Source: Fibrobacter succinogenes
GTDB taxonomy: Bacteria > Fibrobacterota > Fibrobacteria > Fibrobacterales > Fibrobacteraceae
Assembly (NCBI GenBank): GCA_902762795.1
Contig: CACWPM010000014.1
Span: 1 to 58,054 of the forward strand
Direction of reading: 5' to 3'
Length of the DNA stretch: 58,054 bases
The notes below the pieces were generated by a model. That model searched no databases. It was not told where the DNA came from and saw only the letters and a list, made by a program, of their open reading frames with translations. Shown here in pieces: positions 17,963 through 32,151 of this stretch (positions within the stretch are counted from its first letter, which is position 1; the number at the start of each line of letters is the position of its first letter). The translations under genes and the position numbers were made by a program.

Positions 17963-18901
17963 CTATTTAATGACTACCATTTTTCTATTGTTATAATAGG
18001 TACCCTTTGCTGTCGGTTTGTGCTGAAGTTTACGGCCCTTCATATCATACCAACGATCGTCATTTTTGATAAATTCGCCCGTATAAGTATTGATTCTTCC
18101 GAGAGACGTCGTGCCGCTATCCGCATCAACGACGCGCACTTCGATTGTTTCAGGCAAATTATCCAAAGTTTCTTCAGCCACCTTGGCCAAGCCTTTCACT
18201 GCAGACGCCTTCTTAGTCATGGAACACTGGAGATAGGCCCTGAAAGGTCTGATAAAGGCACAGCTCTTTTCGTTGCAAGCCGCCTTCTTGAAATCACCCA
18301 TTTTCGTTTCATTCTTATTTTTCGCGGCAAAGCCATAAATTCCAGCAGGCTTCGTGAACTTGATGTACTCGTAAGTTCCGATAATGTTCCAGTCGTAACT
18401 ACCACGAGTGAACAAAGCACCCTTCGACTTATTGGTCGTATTGAGCGTCACATAGCTAGGGTTAAGGTCTTTCAGGTTAAAAGATATAGCCAGGTCCCTG
18501 CCCTCGGAGATGACCACATAAGGCGTATTCGCTTTAACCTCTTGAGAATAATTCGTTCTGACATTGATTCGATATTCGCAATTATCGCAATCCTTAACGA
18601 CATCGACATATTCAAAAACAGACAAACCTGTTTTCCAAGTCGGCACAGAAAAAGGCAACATCAACGTCGAAGGAACAGAAGCCTTGAACACACGGCTGTA
18701 ATAGACGGAATCCACATTGATATCCTTCTCAATCACCGGAGTTTCATTCGATTCGTCATCAATAAAGGCAACGGTCTTATCCCCGACTTTCTTTATAGTG
18801 ATGGCACCGTACTTGCCGACAATTTCTTCATCGGCAGCCAAAGTTGTTCCCGCGAACCCGAGAACAAAAGCGATAGTAGAGAGTGCTTTAAAATATCTCA
18901 T
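17963..18901 (-). CDS. Secreted protein with C-terminal sorting-like tail
   Basis: 312 residues. Cleavable signal peptide (MRYFKALSTIAFVLGFAGTTLAA). The body is beta-rich with paired cysteines (CDNCEY; CNEKSCAF). The C-terminus reads RWYDMKGRKL...KGTYYNNRKMVVIK, the form of C-terminal tails on many Bacteroidales secreted proteins and close to type IX secretion targeting domains (G-x-Y ... KxVIK). Fibrobacter is reported to have a type IX system, so surface export by it is plausible. The start overlaps the kinase stop as ATGA, and the 50-residue peptide follows by ten bases. Confidence 0.8.
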   Translation of the reverse strand: MRYFKALSTIAFVLGFAGTTLAADEEIVGKYGAITIKKVGDKTVAFIDDESNETPVIEKDINVDSVYYSRVFKASVPSTLMLPFSVPTWKTGLSVFEYVDVVKDCDNCEYRINVRTNYSQEVKANTPYVVISEGRDLAISFNLKDLNPSYVTLNTTNKSKGALFTRGSYDWNIIGTYEYIKFTKPAGIYGFAAKNKNETKMGDFKKAACNEKSCAFIRPFRAYLQCSMTKKASAVKGLAKVAEETLDNLPETIEVRVVDADSGTTSLGRINTYTGEFIKNDDRWYDMKGRKLQHKPTAKGTYYNNRKMVVIK

Positions 18902-21120
18902 TGCTTACCCCCAAATTTAGAGCCTAACAAAAAGAACAATGAAGCTAATGAAAAGCGCTTATAATCCTGTTTTTTGCAATAATATTCCTTCTCGTAGTAA
19001 CCGTAATGGCCCGGTTCATATTCGCAATGGTTCAATACTATTGCACCCGGTTTACTAGAATAGCGAGAAATCTTAGCCAACGTTTCCTTGATATCTTCCA
19101 TACGATGACATCCATAGCGCAAAACGAACAGCGAGAAATCCACCAACGGGCAAATCAGCTCGGCATCGGTCACCAAATTCAGCGGCGGAGTGTCCACAAT
19201 GACCATATCGAACTTCTGGCGAGCTTCCTTGAGCAACTGGTCCATTGCATCCCTACGAAGCAAGGCGCAAGAAGTCATATCGGTTCTTCCAGAACCAAGC
19301 ACAAAGAAATTCTCCATATATTTGTTCTGCACAGTAGCATCCAGCGTTGCAGTTCCCAAAAGGACATCCGCAAGACCGCGCTTCGAACGATCGTGAAGAA
19401 CGCCGCGACGCATATCGGCATCTATCAACAGCACCTTCTTTCCGTTAGCAGCCATCGTTGCCGCCAAATTCTGCGAAACAAAGCTCTTGCCGACTCCCGA
19501 GACAAGCCCCATCACAAGAATTACAGGATGTTCCACCTGCGATGGCAACGAGAACTTCACGGCAGTCATCATGGATTCGAAAGCTTCCGTCACTTGGGCA
19601 TCCGTTTTGCGGAGCACAAAGGGCATTGTATTGAACACGCTCTTTTTTCTGCGCAACATTTTATTCTTGGACAAAGGAATCTTCACCAACACGTTAACGC
19701 CAGTTTCGCGTTCGATTTCGGTTGCACTACGAGCACCGTTTCTCAACATATACACAAGGAATACAAAAAGAATACCCACCATAAAGCCCGCAGCAACAGC
19801 ACATGTTACGATATTGAGCCTTTTCGGTTTAGAAGGAACCGATTCGATCTGCGCATAATCAACGATACGCACATTGCCCACTTCGCCAACGCGCACAACT
19901 CGCAACTGCTGAATGTTGTTGAGCATGTTCGTATAAATTTCGCTGTTCACGGCCACTTCTTCTTGCAAGCGTAAAACTTCCTGCTGGGAAAGAGGCATTT
20001 TTTCGGCACGTTTCTTGAGATGAGAAAGTTCAGAGCGCAACTTGTTCTGGCGTTTTACAAGCGTCACGACGCTCGGATGTTCCGCCTTGAACAAGCGCAA
20101 CGCTTCTTGTTTTTTCTGTTCCAAATCAATAATCTGTCTCTGCAAATCGTTTTCTTTCGAAATGTGGGCTCGGGTTTCGCTATTCATATCAATAGAACCG
20201 ATTTTATAGCGATAATCAGCCAAAACTCTTTCTGCACTATCGAGTTTCGCTTTGACTCCCGGCAACTGGCTTTCCAAGAATTCGAGCGTCTTTTCTGCTT
20301 CGGCACTGCGCATTTCAATGTTCTGGCGCAAATACGTCTTTGCAATCGTATTCAAAATAGACGCGGCACGGTCCGGATATCGATTACTGTAGCGCACCGT
20401 GATAATTCCGGTCTTTTTGCCACGTTCAGCAACACTCAAAGCCCCCATCAGAGAACGAGCCGCGCTTAGCGTAGAAGTTTGTTTTAAAGCAAACTTCTGA
20501 CCTTCTTTAGCGAGCATGAAACCGACTTTAATAACAAGGGAATCACCGGCGTACTTGACGGAACGGATTTCACCGACTTTGGCATTTTTAATAACAGACG
20601 TTCCATCAGGCGCAATTACAGAATAAGCATCACCATCTTCACCCACTGCAACAGCGGTCCACTTTTCAATACGCATCTTTACAGGAATATACAGGGAATC
20701 CAAGTCCATGCGACCTTCCTGATGCAACAAGCGATCCCAAAAGCTAACCGGAACCGCTTTTAGATGAAGGTGTTCCTCCGCGGCAACAGTGTTAAGCACC
20801 ATTCGGCTCTTGATAAGTTCAATTTCAGCATCGGCCGGGCTAGCCACATCAAGGACCTCGCCCATTTCACCCATAGCCTTAGTAGACTTGCTGCTAGCGC
20901 CCTTTCCATTCACCTGAAGAAGAACATCACTAGAATACTGGGGACGAGCCCACATCGCATAACCGACACCGATCAAAGCCCCGACAAGGACAAAGAGCAG
21001 GATTGTCCACTTTTTCTTCCAAAGGATAACGAACGCTTCTTGCAGCGTAATCGTGTTGTCCGTTCTCATTGTTGGAACCATGGGGATTCCCGAAGCTATT
21101 ATTTTATCTTGTTCCGACAT
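18898..21120 (-). CDS. Wzc-like polysaccharide co-polymerase/tyrosine autokinase
   Basis: 740 residues. N-terminal Wzz domain with membrane helix at about 37-57, a long periplasmic coiled-coil region (about 250-420), a second helix at about 440-462, then a cytosolic BY-kinase: Walker A GLVSGVGKS (about 535-543), Walker A' LLIDADMRRG (about 570), Walker B MVIVDTPP. The C-terminus has the autophosphorylated tyrosine cluster (YEPGHYGYYEKEYYCKKQDY, about 700-720). The family controls capsule or exopolysaccharide chain length with Wzx/Wzy and an outer membrane exporter. None of these, nor any glycosyltransferase, lies here; instead it is coupled to a secreted protein and a small peptide. Confidence 0.92.
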   Translation of the reverse strand: MSEQDKIIASGIPMVPTMRTDNTITLQEAFVILWKKKWTILLFVLVGALIGVGYAMWARPQYSSDVLLQVNGKGASSKSTKAMGEMGEVLDVASPADAEIELIKSRMVLNTVAAEEHLHLKAVPVSFWDRLLHQEGRMDLDSLYIPVKMRIEKWTAVAVGEDGDAYSVIAPDGTSVIKNAKVGEIRSVKYAGDSLVIKVGFMLAKEGQKFALKQTSTLSAARSLMGALSVAERGKKTGIITVRYSNRYPDRAASILNTIAKTYLRQNIEMRSAEAEKTLEFLESQLPGVKAKLDSAERVLADYRYKIGSIDMNSETRAHISKENDLQRQIIDLEQKKQEALRLFKAEHPSVVTLVKRQNKLRSELSHLKKRAEKMPLSQQEVLRLQEEVAVNSEIYTNMLNNIQQLRVVRVGEVGNVRIVDYAQIESVPSKPKRLNIVTCAVAAGFMVGILFVFLVYMLRNGARSATEIERETGVNVLVKIPLSKNKMLRRKKSVFNTMPFVLRKTDAQVTEAFESMMTAVKFSLPSQVEHPVILVMGLVSGVGKSFVSQNLAATMAANGKKVLLIDADMRRGVLHDRSKRGLADVLLGTATLDATVQNKYMENFFVLGSGRTDMTSCALLRRDAMDQLLKEARQKFDMVIVDTPPLNLVTDAELICPLVDFSLFVLRYGCHRMEDIKETLAKISRYSSKPGAIVLNHCEYEPGHYGYYEKEYYCKKQDYKRFSLASLFFLLGSKFGGKQ

Positions 21121-21544: not shown

Positions 21545-21763
21545 GTACCTATAAAAAACTGAAAAATCATGCTTTATAGGTACAAAAACAGAAATAAAAA
21601 CAGCAGCATCCTTTCATCGGACATTAAAGTACCTATAAACAACAAGAAAAGCGTTTTTTATAGGTACAAAAATTCCATTTTCCGCGCTTATTTTTAGTTA
21701 ATTTATACAAAATTTACTAAAATTGTACCTATAAATAGATAAAAAGAACAAATTTATAGGTAC
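21545..21763. repeat. Three equal inverted-repeat units GTACCTATAAA-N17-TTTATAGGTAC
   Basis: Units at 21545-21583, 21629-21667 and 21725-21763. Each is exactly 39 bp: a perfect 11-bp arm, a 17-bp spacer, and the perfect inverted arm. Arms are identical in all six positions while the three spacers are unrelated except for being A-rich; the gaps between units are 45 and 57 bp. AAA follows every right arm. They lie in the 698-bp gap (21121-21818) between two minus-strand genes, 425-643 bp upstream of the Wzc-like gene. They may be operators, recombination sites or RNA hairpins. The rest of the gap is AT-rich without a gene. Confidence 0.9.
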
Positions 21764-21818: not shown

Positions 21819-22409
21819 TTACTTAGTCTTCTTGTTTTTCTTGCGGGCACGTCTTGCAACAACCGCCGGACGAACAAGCGTTGCTATATTCATCGCAGTT
21901 CCAATCAAAATCAAAAAACTCGTGCAATAAAGACCTATTCCCGCATTCACTTTTAAAAGCGGTATTCCAAGCGTATCCCCAAGCTGCGAAAGTTTCATCA
22001 AGAGGGACCAAAGCGATATCATCGATAAAAGTCCCATGATTGTCGAAGCTAGCGGAACGACCCAGGCAAACGCTGCTGCCAAAAACACGGCCACAAGAAT
22101 TCCATATAAATGTTTTACAGGTTCCATTTTCGGAAAGTTCGGGATCAGACCTTTAAAATGGTCCAGGACCTTCGGATTTTCCTTGAACATGCGACGCATC
22201 TGGCCAAGCGCCGGATCCGCAATCGCTTCATCCAAATCTACCCCCGATGCAACTTCATAGAAAGTAATTTCAGCGATAGGTTTGCTATCGTCCTTGGCCG
22301 AGCAAGAAACATTTGCCAACGGCATCAATAAAGCGAGAAAAACCAGCAAATAAGGGATTGCGGTCAATTTTTTGAATAAACTCTTTTCCTTATTGGAATT
22401 TTGACTCAT
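21819..22409 (-). CDS. Uncharacterised membrane protein
   Basis: 196 residues. One N-terminal hydrophobic segment (about 18-36, ending near Cys36 in NVSCSAK, possibly a lipoprotein-like signal), a soluble stretch of about 65 residues, then three membrane helices (about 103-123, 125-140, 152-175) and a very basic tail (RRARKKNKKTK). Family not recognised. Its start overlaps the stop of the FGE-fold gene as ATGA, so the two are co-translated. Confidence 0.75.
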   Translation of the reverse strand: MSQNSNKEKSLFKKLTAIPYLLVFLALLMPLANVSCSAKDDSKPIAEITFYEVASGVDLDEAIADPALGQMRRMFKENPKVLDHFKGLIPNFPKMEPVKHLYGILVAVFLAAAFAWVVPLASTIMGLLSMISLWSLLMKLSQLGDTLGIPLLKVNAGIGLYCTSFLILIGTAMNIATLVRPAVVARRARKKNKKTK

Positions 22410-24700
22410 TTTTCTTTTTCCTGAATAATTCTTTCGAGGGGGAACACGCAGCGGAACCCGATGTGATCAGACCAATAACGCGGATCTTCATCATCACGAA
22501 CCGTCATATTCAAATTTTTCACATTGTCTTTCCAAGAACCACCCTTCAAGACCTTATTCGTTCCCCAATAAGAACCTGTCGGATTGGAATTTTCAATCGA
22601 GAACGTAATGGCAAAATAATTATCGCGAGTCCATTCGGCAACATTTCCCGACATGTCGTAAATTCCCCAATCATTCGGATCCTTTGTCGCCACATCATGC
22701 GGACCATAGGCGTCATCCTTCTTGCCCTTGTTCAGGGAATTTCCTGCATACACCGCATATTTGTCCACGTCCATGGAGTCGTCCGATTTCCAGAGGGTTC
22801 CATCGTTGCTACCTGCACGCCCAGCAAATTCCCATTGCGCTTCGGTCGGCAAATCACCGCCAAGCACTTTACAAGCGTACTGGGCATGTTCCCAAGTGAT
22901 ATTCTGGACAGGCTTGTTTACACCCTTGAATAAAGAGCGATCCGGAACACGCTTTGTCGAATCTACAAGTCCCATTATCTTATGGAAAAATTCCTGGGTC
23001 ACTTCGGTCGTATGTATGGCATACGCCGACATAGCAACGACCTTGCCACGATAACGGAACGAGCCGGAATCAACAACAACGATGGTTCCGCGTGTAGCAT
23101 GTTCGATAATTTTTTTACCCGGTTTTGCCTTAACTGTATCTACCACCGCAGAAGACGAACTTGCGACAACGGAGGACGATGATGAAACCGGCATCTTCGG
23201 TTTAAGCCACTGAACGACTTCCGGTTCGATAGCTATATGCAAAGGTAAAATAAATTTGCCCTTGCCATAGTAAACGGAATCGCCTACCTGGAATCCAACT
23301 TTTTCATAACGATACTGGTAACGCCCGACAAGGCGCCCCTCCTTGAAAATCCACACCGGCTTATTATTCACGAGGAAAAGGGTGGTCTTAAGGGAAGAAT
23401 CTTTTTTCTCGATCAAAGCCGCAAGAGAGTCCATCGAAAAACCTTCAACGTAGCCTTTCCAGACAACATCTATACGGCCTCGATCCGTGCCAAAACGCAA
23501 TTTCAGAGAATCCGCATTGACCAAGGAATCAATCTTTACCGATGAATCAACCTTAGCCATATTCGCCGCCGTCACAATTTTTTCAACAGACGTAGGCAAC
23601 ATATCGATTTGAAGTGGAAATGACTGAAGACTATCCAGTTTTGCATGGAAAGCCTTGTATATATCGCTCACCACTCCTAACTTTTTAGTGCGCCACAGAG
23701 TTTGAGCTTCGCTACGCTTTAAATTGTAATGAGTCACATACTTGCGATAGACCTTGCCCGAATCGACAAGTCCTAAGGAATCCGCCGGTTTTATCTTGGG
23801 ATAGACGTTCGAGAAAAAGGTTGTATCTACGCGATTGACATTTTTGTCCACATCGATAGAGAATGTATCGTAAAGAGCTTCAGTCTCCTCAAGCGTTTTA
23901 AGAGCAAGCACCTGATCAAGCGTGACAGACGGTTTCACCGAAACGGAAGCACTAGAATCAAGAGATTTGGCACTGGAATCCACCGAAGCGTCGGAAGCAG
24001 CATCAATAGATTCAATGGCCGGAAATTTCACGTTGAACGAAAGCACTTCGCCCGGCTTGAGCACTCCGGCATCCACATAAGGCAACTTGTCCGGAGCATT
24101 AAACGAAAACACATAGACACCACTTTGTGCCGGATAAATCGCCCGCGTCCCTACCTTTAGCTTAGAATTTAAAGAAACGATTTCAAAATTCTTTTCGTCA
24201 GAATTGAATTGCACCATTCCAGGATGAACGCATTCATTCAGGACCTGCCACTTGCCATTTTTCATGAACAGGAGCTTTGACACTCGTGGCGAATAAATAT
24301 AATCGGCATCAAAATATATGTCGGCCTCATCCTGGAAAGCCTTGTACTGGCGCGATGCATACAAGCGCAGTCCAAGAACTTCTCGTGCACCCAAATTATT
24401 GTCCTTGAGACTAAAGGCATGTAGTTTCTTGTAATCATCCGGTTTTGCATGGCCAGAAAACCACAGATATTCCTTCGCCGACTTTTTGTATCGAAGGTAG
24501 AGTTGGTTCGGTTGCAATGGGAATACAGGTTCCTGAGAGATCGCTACAGCCTGGTCCAATTCAATAGCCTTCTTGGCCGCATGTTCCATGACACCACCGA
24601 CTTTAAAATTTTCCGATGTCAATTTAAAGTTGCGATCATCATCGGCCATTGTAAGCGCCGGGACCAGCAACAAAAGCGGAAGCAATCGGGAAAATGTCAT
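22406..24700 (-). CDS. Secreted protein with C-terminal SUMF/FGE-fold domain
   Basis: 764 residues. The signal peptide ends ALTMADDD. A long beta-rich N-terminal part has serine-rich runs (about residues 240-255 and 512-523). The C-terminal 210 residues are a formylglycine-generating-enzyme fold: HTTEVTQEFF, VQNITWEHAQYAC, LPTEAQWEFAGRAG, GIYDMSGNVAEWTRDNY, VLKGGSWKD and GFRCVF. The copper-binding cysteines of true FGE, which follow GGSW, are absent (KDNVKNL), so it is a non-catalytic, probably ligand-binding copy. Fibrobacter encodes families of such proteins. Translationally coupled to the following membrane protein. Confidence 0.85.
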   Translation of the reverse strand: MTFSRLLPLLLLVPALTMADDDRNFKLTSENFKVGGVMEHAAKKAIELDQAVAISQEPVFPLQPNQLYLRYKKSAKEYLWFSGHAKPDDYKKLHAFSLKDNNLGAREVLGLRLYASRQYKAFQDEADIYFDADYIYSPRVSKLLFMKNGKWQVLNECVHPGMVQFNSDEKNFEIVSLNSKLKVGTRAIYPAQSGVYVFSFNAPDKLPYVDAGVLKPGEVLSFNVKFPAIESIDAASDASVDSSAKSLDSSASVSVKPSVTLDQVLALKTLEETEALYDTFSIDVDKNVNRVDTTFFSNVYPKIKPADSLGLVDSGKVYRKYVTHYNLKRSEAQTLWRTKKLGVVSDIYKAFHAKLDSLQSFPLQIDMLPTSVEKIVTAANMAKVDSSVKIDSLVNADSLKLRFGTDRGRIDVVWKGYVEGFSMDSLAALIEKKDSSLKTTLFLVNNKPVWIFKEGRLVGRYQYRYEKVGFQVGDSVYYGKGKFILPLHIAIEPEVVQWLKPKMPVSSSSSVVASSSSAVVDTVKAKPGKKIIEHATRGTIVVVDSGSFRYRGKVVAMSAYAIHTTEVTQEFFHKIMGLVDSTKRVPDRSLFKGVNKPVQNITWEHAQYACKVLGGDLPTEAQWEFAGRAGSNDGTLWKSDDSMDVDKYAVYAGNSLNKGKKDDAYGPHDVATKDPNDWGIYDMSGNVAEWTRDNYFAITFSIENSNPTGSYWGTNKVLKGGSWKDNVKNLNMTVRDDEDPRYWSDHIGFRCVFPLERIIQEKEK

Positions 24701-24769: not shown

Positions 24770-27700
24770 TCATTTTGACGAATTAACACTCATTTCGAGC
24801 AAATAACCACCCTTTGCACCACCAACAGGTCCCAATTCAACTTTCCAGTCGGCCAAACGGATAATATCGGGGTGGTGTTCGATGACAATCACCGTATCGC
24901 CACGCGCCGAAAGCCTGCGCAACAGGTTCCAAAGAATCTGGATATCCTTCAAGTGGAGGCCCGTTGTCGGCTCGTCAAGCAGGTAGACCATTTCCGTTGC
25001 CGAGCGTCGGCAAAGTTCCGCGGCTAGCTTCAAGCGTTGCGATTCGCCACCGCTAAGCGTCGTGACCGGCTGCCCGAGCTTGACATACGGAAGTCCAACG
25101 TCACGGAGGCATTCGAGCTTCGGCAAAATCTTCGGTTGATCCTTGAAGAATTCGCAAGCTTCTACAATGCGCATGTCAAGCACGTCGGCAATGTTCTTGC
25201 CCTTGAAAGTGACCGTGAGCGTTTCTTGATTGTAGCGTTTGCCACCGCAGACTTCGCATGTTTCCCAGATGTCCGAAAGGAAGTGCATCTCGACCGCGAC
25301 CGCGCCACGGCCTTCGCAAGCAGGGCAACGCCCACGTGCAAGGTTATAGCTAAAGCGACCGTAATCGAAGCCCTTCATCTTGGACTGTTCGAGTTTTGCA
25401 AACAGCTTGCGGATATCGTCAAAGACACCCGTGAAGCTCGCCGGCGTACTGCGCGGAGTCCCGGAAATCGGGCTTTGGTCGACAAGCAGTACTTCGCCGC
25501 TCTGCTTCTTGCGACCACGCGCCTGAAACTGCTTTTTGAGTGCCGGGAAAATTTCATCGACAACAAGCGAACTCTTGCCCGAACCCGAAACGCCACAAAC
25601 AACGCTCACCGCACGCTTCGGGAATTTTACAGACAAATTCTTCAAGTTGTTTGCATTGAGGTTCTTGAATTCATAGAATTCCGTATCGTCCGTGATGCGC
25701 ACGGGCTCCAGCTGGTTTGCCACCGGAGTCGAATACGTGAGGAACTTGACCGTCTCGCTGCGCGGGAATTGTTGCAACGCATACGGTTTTGCAAGTTCTG
25801 CAGGCGAGCCTTCGGCAACGACTTCACCGCCGAAATCGCCCGCACCCGGGCCCATATCGATAATGTGGTCTGCGGCCTGCATCATCTTGAGGTCGTGTTC
25901 TACGACCACGAGCGTATTGCCGAGGTCACGCAAACGGTAAAGCGTATCGAGAAGTTTCGCGGTATCGCTTTCATGGAGGCCGACGGTCGGTTCATCAAGT
26001 ACATACAAGACGCCTTCAAGGCCGCTACCGATTTGGCTTGCCAAGCGGATGCGCTGGGATTCACCACCCGAGAGCGTGTCACCCGCACGGTCGAGGCCGA
26101 TGTAGCCAAGTCCCACGCTAATCAAGAAGTCCAAACGGCCAATGATTTCGCGGAGGAGCGGAGATGCAATCGTCGTCTTGCTTTGGATGGATGCAGACGT
26201 CGCATTTTCTTCGTTCGCAAAATCGACTTTCGCAAACCAGTCGCGGGCTTCGGCAATGCTCATGTGATGCACGTCCATGATGTTCTTGCCCAAGATGCGC
26301 ACCGCAAGATATTCAGGCTTCAAGCGTTCGCCATGGCAATCCGGGCATTCTTCGCCATCCTTGAAATGACCAAGGCCGAGGCAAGTTTCGCAAGCGCCCC
26401 AATGCGTATTAAAGCTGAAATGCTTCGGGTTAAGAGCCGAATCCATATACCAGCCACATTCCGGGCAGCCCGGCTTTTCGCTGGCCGAGAGGCGTTCCTC
26501 GCCATCGCAATCCACGTAGAGAATACCGTTACCGTCGCGGTAGCCGCGTTCAAACGCTTCGACCAAACGAGCGCGGTTTTCTTCCTTGACCACCACGGAA
26601 TCGACCACGGCAAGCAACGTCTTTTCGCGTGTCGGGACTTTCGGCAGCGGGAGTTCCACAAGCTTTTTGCCGAGATACGCCTTGCGGTAACCCTTTTCCG
26701 TCAAAATCTTAGATAACTTAATTTCGTCCTTGATTTCGAACGGGGCAAGAACTGTCACCATTTTGTTGAGGTCGCGGTCAAATGCAAATTGCATCAAGTC
26801 GCCAGCGGCATAAGAGTTCACCGGTTTTCCGCAATGGAGGCAGTGGGCAGTTCCCACGCGGGCCCACAAAATGCGGAAGTAATCGTAAATTTCGGTAAGC
26901 GTTGCCACCGTACTGCGAGGGCTCTTGCTCGCGCTCTTTTGGTCAATGGCAATGGCTGGGGCGAGGCCCGAAATAGAATCGATGCTACCGCGGTCGGGGC
27001 GGCCCAAGAAGCGACGGGCATAAGTGCTAAGGGTTTCCACAAAGCGACGCTGACCTTCGCTAAAGAGCGTATGGAACGCGAGACTCGACTTGCCCGAGCC
27101 CGAAACACCCGTAATCACCGTGAGCTTGTGGCGCGGGATCGTCACGTCAATGTTCTTGAGGTTGTGCTTACGCGCACCGTGAACTTCGATGTCCAGCGAG
27201 TAATTTTCGCCCTTTTCGTCCGAGCGTTCAAAATGCTTGTTTTCGCCATGTTTTTTCGCCAAGACCGGAGCCAAGTAACGCCCCGTCTCTGACTTTTTGC
27301 ATTTGGCAATTTGTTCGGGAGTTCCCGTGGCGATAATGCGACCGCCATTCACGCCCGCATCTGGGCCCAAATCAATAATCCAGTCCGCGCACTTGATCAC
27401 GTCGAGGTTGTGTTCAATCACCACGACGCTGTTGCCGAGACTGCGCAAGCGGTTCAAGCATTCGAGCAATCGGCGGATATCTTCAAAGTGCAAACCGGTT
27501 GTCGGTTCGTCGAGCAAGTAAAGCGTCTTGCCCGTACCCGGACGGCGGAGTTCCGAAGCAATTTTTACGCGCTGCGCTTCGCCACCGCTCAAAGTTGTGG
27601 AAGGTTGCCCCAGCGTCAAATAGCCAAGGCCCACTTCGCAAAGAAGCTTGAGCGGTTCAGCAATTTTCGGAATGTCCTTGAAAAATTCAGCAGCATCGGC

Positions 27701-30085
27701 AATGCTCATGTCGAGCACTTCCGAAATATTCTTGCCCTTAAAGTAAACTTCACGAGTCGCTTCGTTAAAGCGCTTGCCGTCGCAAACATCGCAAGTGACT
27801 TGAACACTCGGCAAAATGTGCATGTCAATGACCTTCACGCCAGCACCTTCGCAAGCGTCACAGCGACCGCCCTTCACATTAAAGCTAAAGCGGCTCTTCG
27901 TGTACCCGCGCACCTTGCTTTCTTCCATACCCGCAAACAAGTCGCGAATGTCATCCCAGATTTTCGTGTAAGTTGCCGGGTTACTGCGCGGGGTGCGTCC
28001 AATCGGCGTCTGGTCAATTTCAATGACCTTGTCGATGTTTTCTAGACCTTCCAAATGGTCAAACTTGCCGACCGGCTCTTCGGAATTGTAAAACACACGG
28101 GCGAGTTCACGGCGCAAAATCTGGTTCACGAGCGTACTCTTACCCGAACCCGAAACGCCCGTGACTACGGTAAACGCACCGCCAAGCGGGATTTCCACAT
28201 CGATGTTCTTGAGGTTGTTTTCACAGGCACCGCAAATCTTGAGCTTCGGCGTATTCTTGTCAATCTTCATGCGCTGCGACGGGATTTCAATCGATTTGCG
28301 ACCGCTCAAGTACGCGCCCGTAAGCGAAGACTTGTTCTTTTCCAGCTCTTCGACCGTGCCCGCCGCCAAAATGCGACCGCCCTCGACACCCGCGCCAGGG
28401 CCCACGTCAATCACGCAGTCCGCATGGCGCATCGTATCCTCGTCGTGTTCCACGATGAGAAGGCTGTTGCCTTGGGCTCGCAAGCGCTCGAGCATCTCGA
28501 GCAACTTATCGTTGTCGCGTGGATGCAAACCAATGCTCGGTTCATCAAGCACGTAAAGCACACCCTGCAAGCCCGCACCCACGGCACTTGCGAGCCTGAT
28601 ACGCTGCGCCTCACCGCCCGAAAGCGTCGAAGCCTTGCGGCTAATGTCCAAATAGCCAAGTCCCACCGCCTTCAAGAATCCCAGGCGCCCGCGAATTTCC
28701 TTGAGCACTTCGCGACCGATGCGCTGTTCCTTGGGGCTCAACTTGAGCTTGTCAAAAAATTCAACGGACTTTTCGACGGACCATTCCGTCATCTCGCAAA
28801 TGTTATGACCGTGGAAATCGACCGCCGCCGCAATGCGGTTGATTCGCGTGCCGCGACATTCCGGACAAACACCTATCTGCATGTACTTTCGGAAGTGGTA
28901 AATATGCCACATATCCCAAAGTTCCTGCATAATCGTCACCACGCCGCGTTCGCTCCCGCTCGGAGTCCCGTATAGCACGGCATCCTGTTGCGCTTTCTTG
29001 AGCTTTTTCCACGGCGTATCGAGCGAAAAGTGCATTTCGTTTGCAATCGTGCGCAAATTGCGCCAGCCAAAATCGCTAAAGATGATGCAGCCGTCATCCT
29101 TCTTTTGCGGGGCAAGGCAGCCCTCCTTCAAAGACAAATTCGGATTCGGCACAATCAAGTTCATGTCAAATTCACAACTTTCGCCAAGACCCTTGCATGC
29201 GGGGCATTGACCCTTCGGATCGTTAAAGCTAAAGAATCGCGGTTCGAGTTCCGGGATAGAAATTCCGCACTTTGGGCAAGCAAGCTGCGTACCCTGCAAG
29301 CGGTATTCTTCCTTCGCAGAAGCCCCCTGCGATGCATCTGCGGCACCATCCGAGCCCGCCTCCGGAGAAGTCAACAAAAACGACACGAGCTTTCCGTCCG
29401 TGAGCTTCAAGGCACCTTCAATCGCCTCGCGCAAACGGCTCATGTTCTTGCGTTCGAGCGTCAAGCGGTCAATCACCACTTCAATCGTGTGCTTCTCGTA
29501 ACGCACCAGCAGCGGCACATCTTCGAGCCTGTAAATCGTTCCGTCCACACGTACACGGACAAATCCATTTTCCTTGAGCTCCGCGAGTTCCTTGCGGTAT
29601 TCGCCCTTGCGCTCCTGCACAATCGGCGCCATCACCAAAATCTTTTTATTCTCGTCACTGGCGTACAAGTTATCGACAATCTGGTCGACCGACTGCGCCT
29701 GGATCACCTTGCCGCACTTGGGGCAATGCGGAACGCCGAGGCGCGCAAACATCAAACGGTAATGGTCCAAAATTTCGACCACCGTACCCACCGTACTGCG
29801 CGGGTTACGGTTCACCGTCTTCTGGTCAATCGAAATCGTCGGCGAAATCCCGCGAACGCTTTCCACATCCGGATGCTTCATGCGCCCGATGAACTGGCGC
29901 GCATACGCCGAAAGCGACTCCACAAAGCGGCGCTGCCCTTCCTGGAACACCGTATCAAACGCCAAGCTCGACTTGCCCGAACCCGAAACGCCTGTGACCA
30001 CGACAATCGAGTCGCGGGGAATCGTCAAATCGACATGGCGGAGGTTGTGTTCATGAGCATCGCGGATTTCAATAGATTTCGTCAT
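24770..30085 (-). CDS. uvrA: Double-length UvrA (excinuclease ABC subunit A, tandem fusion)
   Basis: 1771 residues, against about 940 for ordinary UvrA. Residues 1-960 form one complete UvrA and 963-1771 a second, so the chain holds four ABC ATPase domains. Walker A GVSGSGKS occurs near residues 32, 645, 998 and 1498, and LSGGE near 487, 832, 1337 and 1677. Both halves keep CxxC zinc modules: CPKCG..., [25 protein letters not shown] in half 1; CLHCGKP, CPECG...[25 protein letters not shown] in half 2. UvrA dimerises to find DNA damage for UvrB/UvrC, so here a single chain could mimic the dimer. Chlamydial UvrA has a similar double length. No frameshift at the junction. Confidence 0.96.
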
Positions 30086-32072: not shown

Positions 32073-32145
32073 GGGGATATAGCTCAGTTGGTAGAGCGAC
32101 AGGTTCGCAATCTGTAGGTCATGGGTTCGACTCCCACTATCTCCA
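32073..32145 (+). tRNA. tRNA-Ala (anticodon CGC)
   Basis: 73-nt cloverleaf: acceptor GGGGATA/TATCTCC, D arm GCTC-AGTTGGTA-GAGC, anticodon arm ACAGG-TTCGCAA-TCTGT with anticodon CGC reading GCG, T loop TTCGACT, discriminator A. The G3-U70 wobble pair, the identity element of tRNA-Ala, is present. CCA is not encoded. Confidence 0.97.
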
Positions 32146-32151
32146 CGCAAA

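Follow-up and report, generated by a model that had tools for sequence, protein, structure and literature searches.

The array of three dyads at positions 21545–21763 of the window (the whole stretch of 58,054 bp of Fibrobacter succinogenes DNA analysed here) belongs, in the reading that we favour, to a set of about 15 binding arrays dispersed over the genome, whose common binder would be a PD-(D/E)XK-type protein acting as a nuclease that maintains or spreads its own sites. Based on sequence comparisons, this reading as a whole has, in our opinion, an even chance of being correct; the pairing of the protein family with cognate arrays, taken by itself, we hold with high confidence.

The array in the window and its copies in the genome

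The six 11-bp arms, of alternating orientation and with 17-bp spacers, were all found where the earlier note had placed them, namely at 21545–21555 (+), 21573–21583 (−), 21629–21639 (+), 21657–21667 (−), 21725–21735 (+) and 21753–21763 (−). No other match to GTACCTATAAA occurs in the window, nor does any appear when 1 mismatch is tolerated; in 100 dinucleotide shuffles the mean was 0.41 and the largest count 4. Each dyad unit measures 39 bp (11 + 17 + 11 bp), with arms GTACCTATAAA and TTTATAGGTAC invariant in all three, and the 17-bp spacer carries a central A-tract in unit 1 (21545–21583), AAAA in unit 2 (21629–21667) and AAAAA in unit 3 (21725–21763); neither the units nor the array is assigned a strand. 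From centre to centre, the units follow each other at 84 and 96 bp, corresponding to 8.0 and 9.1 turns of 10.5 bp. The inter-unit DNA around unit 2 (21584–21724, unstranded) comprises 21584–21628 and 21668–21724; in other arrays DNA of this kind diverges freely in sequence, while its length is kept in phase.

On one side of the array, at 56 bp, is the end of a 196-aa gene without Pfam match (21819–22409, −); on the other lies a gene (18898–21120, −) called Wzc/Wzz-like because of its Pfam matches to GNVR, Wzz and AAA_31, which is the downstream neighbour of the array. In the same window we also observed an FGE-sulfatase domain protein (22406–24700, −), the second gene past the array, a 1771-aa UvrA-like protein with two UvrA_inter stretches (24770–30085, −), which we take to be about twice the usual UvrA length, and a tRNA-Ala (CGC) at 32073–32146 (+). 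The DNA matches of relatives start at or near the end of the 196-aa gene and the DNA beyond differs in them, so that an empty site cannot be read at this locus. One DNA search with the window locus found only single related units and no related array beyond these, so that a copied origin is hypothetical for this particular array.

In the source genome (G000) exact GTACCTATAAA arms occur 45 times in forward and 40 times in reverse orientation, 85 in total, in 15 arrays (the reversed-pattern control gave 3 forward and 0 reverse), and the complete dyad unit is present in 33 copies (control 0). With mismatches allowed, nearly every array has 3–4 dyads, for 54 units, the core arms of which are exact in 104 of 108 cases. 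By mechanical ORF calls all 15 arrays are intergenic, overlapping small ORFs only; many are near gene ends, and convergent gene pairs flank 5 of the 15. The adjoining genes have no common theme (polA, pseudouridine synthase, UvrD, cellulases, an ECF sigma factor, TonB and others), and Pfam detected no recombinase in the genes nearest to the 15 arrays. Nine arrays, present in both orientations, form one homologous family; aligned and judged by eye, their homology ends about 27 bp to the right of the last unit and about 60–70 bp to the left of the first, and neither a target-site duplication nor a precise insertion point was seen at the array ends on this alignment.

These results bear directly on the function first proposed. 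The start codon of the Wzc-like gene is 425 bp downstream of the array, a position in favour of the control, phase-variable or by multiple operators, that had been suggested for the polysaccharide locus, but arrays at 14 other places are beside unrelated genes. We have therefore rejected the array as a local operator of the Wzc gene and give control of this locus a very small chance; a role specific to surface polysaccharides does not agree with 15 arrays next to unrelated genes, 5 of them between convergent ones. It had also been argued that many copies in unrelated contexts would reduce the array to a simple dispersed repeat: such copies exist, and they count against the operator reading, but the second step does not hold, because the units are phased and tied to a cognate gene.

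As for the phasing, the centre-to-centre distances are limited to few values, namely 61–64, 74–75, 84–86, 94–97, 105–106, 158–159 and 168 bp. The best period was 10.50 bp for the arrays of the source genome (n = 32, R = 0.922), 10.50 bp for other Fibrobacter (n = 54, R = 0.927), 10.30 bp for Clostridia (n = 52, R = 0.936) and 10.50 bp for arrays of other words (n = 70, R = 0.943). Pooling the non-redundant arrays gave 10.50 bp (n = 208, R = 0.922), compared with a maximum of 0.254 for uniform random spacings in the same scan. These sets leave out spacings of at least 250 bp, inter-unit sequences similar to one kept, L118 (ortholog of L044), the Clostridia single-dyad loci, near-duplicate other-word arrays, and L176, whose 184-bp spacing (17.5 turns), beside a unit ending in N, is the one clear exception to the phasing. 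The indels between homologous arrays are about one or two helical turns long. We know of no better explanation for this regularity than a protein complex that would read a number of dyads from the same side of the helix. An element acting in RNA, as transcript hairpins or terminators, would agree with a unit that could fold into an 11-bp stem with a 17-nt loop and with the many arrays near gene ends; nevertheless, the 10.5-bp phasing between units has no known reason in RNA, no Rfam family matches the window array and the arm word tracks a protein segment (see below), all of which makes it a most improbable explanation.

A family of predicted nucleases with cognate arrays

The core dyad is present in 18 of the 80 genomes of the genus and in none of the other 62; six dyad-rich genomes contain 50, 39, 35, 28, 20 and 12 dyads. 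A scan of species genomes gave 91 stretches with dyads, of which the 40 non-Fibrobacter ones were read: 28 of these loci have at least 2 dyads and come without exception from MAGs labelled Eubacteriales, Clostridiales or Lachnospiraceae, and 12 have single dyads, some surely by chance. Arrays of the GTACCTATAAA word are found both in other Fibrobacter MAGs and in MAGs of Clostridia, many of them rumen-derived. In one Clostridia MAG (L170:6015-6722) nine dyads of closely similar repeats follow each other at 84 bp.

Clustering of the proteins encoded around the Clostridia arrays revealed one family that adjoins arrays in three MAGs, and the same family adjoins arrays in Fibrobacter, including contig C37 of the source genome; in Clostridia and Fibrobacter together, a family gene is next to an array at 8 of the 91 loci of the dyad scan, and in both groups there is an array directly upstream of such a gene. 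The proteins are 265–300 aa long, unannotated and with a predicted PD-(D/E)XK domain. The cognate gene of the source genome is on contig C37 (L044:6851-7750), with its own array just upstream. At most 50 of the 80 genus genomes match the family, the match being limited in some cases to the nuclease domain of a larger protein, and about 80 of these matches were read. A de novo search upstream of the family genes found a dyad array at 61 of 86 entries, with at least 3 units at 47 of 86, compared with 0 of 430 shuffles; among these 86 entries are many orthologs and two loci that were counted twice (L044/L223 and L104/L229). By the strict detector, 25 of the 86 entries had no upstream array and 10 of 84 had a downstream one. 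Moreover, all six genomes with at least 12 ACCTATAAA dyads have a family member whose own array bears ACCTATAAA. Some arrays, those of G006 and those of G065, G011 and G078, are in genomes for which the loci read gave no cognate gene.

The family gene appears solitary. No partner gene is conserved within about 1.2–1.5 kb of 80 family loci, and no recombinase gene is conserved beside the family genes; a conserved partner was rejected after the recurring neighbours had turned out to be syntenic host genes (MiaB-like, TonB_C, HAD) or probable antisense frames. Genomes contain several family members, and in one member (G000:C9:95183-96061), as in several relatives, each of the two conserved parts gives a match of its own, as if extra sequence had come between them.

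The structure predicted for the family protein L164:5543-6364 (pLDDT 82.8, pTM 0.56) comprises an N-terminal part of a helix, three strands and a long helix, followed by a PD-(D/E)XK-like domain. Over residues 139/167–273 this domain reached Z values of 6–8 with many PD-(D/E)XK domains, among them I-Bth0305I (8.1), TnsA (7.9), Bax1 (7.8), VRR_NUC (6.9), the R2 endonuclease (6.3) and Vsr (6.2). Since the best Z was 8.1 and Foldseek gave no match to the model at E ≤ 0.001, a PD-(D/E)XK-like fold of the C-terminal domain is moderately supported. The positions RSKSE, P and WEH are conserved in 86 of 86 family entries and D227 in 85 of 86; the invariant RSKSE, PDF and WEH positions agree with the predicted fold, the conserved acidic and basic residues fit those of a PD-(D/E)XK active site, and we infer their exact assignment to E, D and (D/E)XK. 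Pfam returned only THUMP and AAA_18, at the level of chance (E up to 10), NCBIfam one chance-level match, PHROGs no assignment, and a sequence search of the PDB no convincing relative.

PADLOC candidates match the nuclease domain (PDC-S68, C-terminal part, best E 1e-25 to 4e-23). This match, the specificity that differs between relatives and the several members per genome could suggest a role in defence, or of the arrays as decoys, in which the nuclease would be inactive on the chromosomal arrays and act on incoming DNA, or the arrays would mark self. The match is limited, however, to the nuclease domain, no partner gene is conserved beside the 80 loci, and dispersed arrays would have no evident reason in such a role, which we regard as improbable. 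A phage origin of the arrays was rejected: IMG/VR has 13 contigs with one dyad each and no array, and its protein-profile search gave no relative of the family protein, while by tblastn it matches 2 of 50,697 phage records, one of them nearly full length (MT839528, 33%), and 8 of 72,556 plasmid records, each over less than 80% of the query.

The members of the family differ in the words of their arms, of which we counted more than fifteen, among them ACCTATAAA, GGCATATAA, GGGGCGTATAA, TTACATAC, TTACGTAC, GGTTACTAA, TAGGACTAAA and TGCTACCAAA, with the inner AAA mostly in common. In 38 non-redundant loci with at least 3 units, the distance between words correlates with that in the N-terminal recognition segment (residues 66–82) when the nuclease domain is allowed for (partial Mantel r = 0.419, 0 of 2000 permutations); with the recognition segment allowed for, the contribution of the nuclease domain is small (0.067). 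From its sequence, the pair L104 and L213 is a natural domain swap, being 100% identical in the middle and 96% in the nuclease part, with 53% in the segment and different words. A prediction set beforehand concerned the second member of the source genome, on contig C23: its word gave 47 further dyads in that genome (control 0), in 15 arrays with a best period of 10.45 bp. This second pair, independent of the first and with the word TTACGTAC, is distributed over contig C23 (L253) and 13 further contig places, and two of its arrays flank the gene itself. Dyads of GGCATATAA and GGCGTATAA occur in 14 and 9 of the 80 genomes, respectively, and neither in the source genome; G018 and G031 have dispersed phased arrays of the GGCGTATAA type besides one at their own family gene.

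Members beside a same-looking neighbouring reading frame carry different words, and for this reason the specificity seems to turn over in place. One such frame recurs beside the family genes of L216, L225, L217, L218, L222, L223 and L299, which have three words. Arrays were also observed upstream of the same DUF4423-type gene in different species with different words (L038:7021-7917, L331 and L334), with only one of the flanks orthologous.

Divergence, patchiness and possible exchange of the arrays

Among orthologous arrays, differences in aligned bases amounted to 12/594 in the arms (2.0%), 53/464 in the spacers (11.4%) and 137/855 between units (16.0%), and among the arrays within the source genome to 192/3080 (6.2%), 847/2403 (35%) and 1243/3649, respectively. 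In both comparisons the arms diverge less than the spacers, which bears out the selection or concerted copying that had been proposed to act on them.

The arrays are patchy. Three genomes, G000, G019 and G096, carry one at the pseudouridine synthase/UvrD site, where ten relatives are without array (estimated gap −13 to 218 bp) and G071 is unreadable. The His_Phos/DUF5683 site is occupied by an array in G000 and G096, and the 13 other genomes in which both flanks are together have gaps of −2 to 198 bp or, in G031, of 518 bp. The search for dyads covered the gaps of G031, G018 and G019; an array of another word at this site was rejected, the 518-bp gap of G031 being without dyad array. Each absence could be a loss. 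At the UvrD site the orthologs of G096 and G019 differ in only 5 of 214 flanking bases, although the array interior of G096 agrees at 94 of 100 positions with a non-orthologous array of the source genome and at 87 of 102 with its G019 ortholog; an interior nearer to a non-orthologous array between nearly identical flanks points to exchange between arrays. Finally, 16 of 20 arms were exact where the cognate gene is lacking, compared with 216 of 224 (p = 0.011) or, taking all six carriers, 355 of 386 (p = 0.083), in a comparison that used, for G071 and others, those arrays that had been fetched and not every array of the genome.

The nuclease-driven maintenance or spread of the sites is favoured because the arrays are mosaic and patchily distributed, occupying an orthologous site in one genome and lacking there in another, and because the gene is solitary with invariant nuclease motifs. 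In the proposed mechanism, a dimer would grip each dyad through the three-stranded β-sheet domain, and a larger complex controlling or licensing the nuclease would be assembled by dyads that share a face of the helix. Cutting at or near the arrays could then lead to their copying into new intergenic sites or to their conversion from other arrays, and the nuclease, by cutting, spreading or homogenising the arrays, would maintain its own set of sites as a two-component element, REPIN-RAYT-like or homing-like but made of unrelated parts.

The selection on the arms at each site fits a host function equally well. The protein might mainly be a DNA-binding organiser or a global regulator, with the arrays as selected anchors, insulators or operators; the arms are in fact conserved at each orthologous site, the phasing implies an assembled complex, and an array is found upstream of the same DUF4423-type gene in G000, G019 and G096 (ACCTATAAA) and in G018 and G031 (GGCGTATAA). 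On the other hand, the dyad is confined to 18 of the 80 genomes of the genus and orthologous sites are without array in relatives, the neighbours are unrelated and convergent at 5 of the 15 arrays, and the positions of the nuclease motifs do not vary, a constraint for which a protein that only binds DNA would have no use. We consider a host role of this kind rather unlikely, if clearly less so than defence.

Extended to the whole family, the nuclease-driven reading would describe solitary nucleases with naturally reprogrammed recognition segments, each sustaining by cutting and gene conversion a genome-wide network of phased arrays of its own word, with at least two independent networks per chromosome and the same word in Fibrobacter and Clostridia. 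We propose this tentatively, and give it slightly less than an even chance.

Comparison with known systems and significance

According to two studies, REPIN-RAYT consists of dispersed extragenic palindromes, some of them with a cognate enzyme gene beside them, and the two components co-evolve into separate pairs (PMC3116915, PMC8266576). The arrays described here are likewise palindromic, intergenic and dispersed, in 15 copies, one of which is beside the enzyme gene (L044:6851-7750). The enzyme, however, is a predicted PD-(D/E)XK protein, whereas RAYT is an HUH (Y1) transposase; REPs are many small single hairpins per genome, whereas here phased multi-dyad arrays of about 200–300 bp occur about 15 times per genome for each word. 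The system has the layout of REPIN-RAYT and is not a member of that class, since it lacks the defining enzyme.

Several spaced protein sites are present also at the ends of Tn7, whose TnsA ranks high among the fold neighbours of the modelled C-terminal domain (Z 7.9), but no partner gene such as TnsB or TnsC is conserved within about 1.2–1.5 kb of the 80 family loci and the arrays are without cargo. The homing endonuclease I-Bth0305I, of Vsr-like fold, is the top structural match (Z 8.1), and one array interior looks exchanged between loci; unlike for homing endonucleases, no intron or intein host was seen and the presumed site is a multi-copy genomic array. Serine-resolvase res sites are composed of several dyad subsites in helical phase, but a recombinase gene was found neither by Pfam near the 15 arrays nor conserved beside the family genes. 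The layout is not that of a terminator, a CRISPR or a dif site, as already stated in the earlier note; compared with CRISPR, the units are dyads, whole arrays including the spacers are homologous between loci, and the nearest genes of the 15 arrays are not cas by Pfam. A search of the open literature gave no description of such nuclease-array pairs, which is a weak negative as subscription literature is mostly uncovered by it.

The arrays are an unusually clean readout, as word and helical phase have both to be right at every site; with them, genome sequence alone could be enough to read the DNA-recognition code of the N-terminal domain. A DNA-binding domain that is modular and sequence-specific, has many specificities in nature and depends strictly on phase would be of practical interest as well. 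If our reading is true, the family would represent a second, unrelated solution to the role of REPIN-RAYT, namely one chromosomal enzyme with its own dispersed sites, and one could test with it whether such arrays are kept by bacteria for their own benefit or under compulsion.
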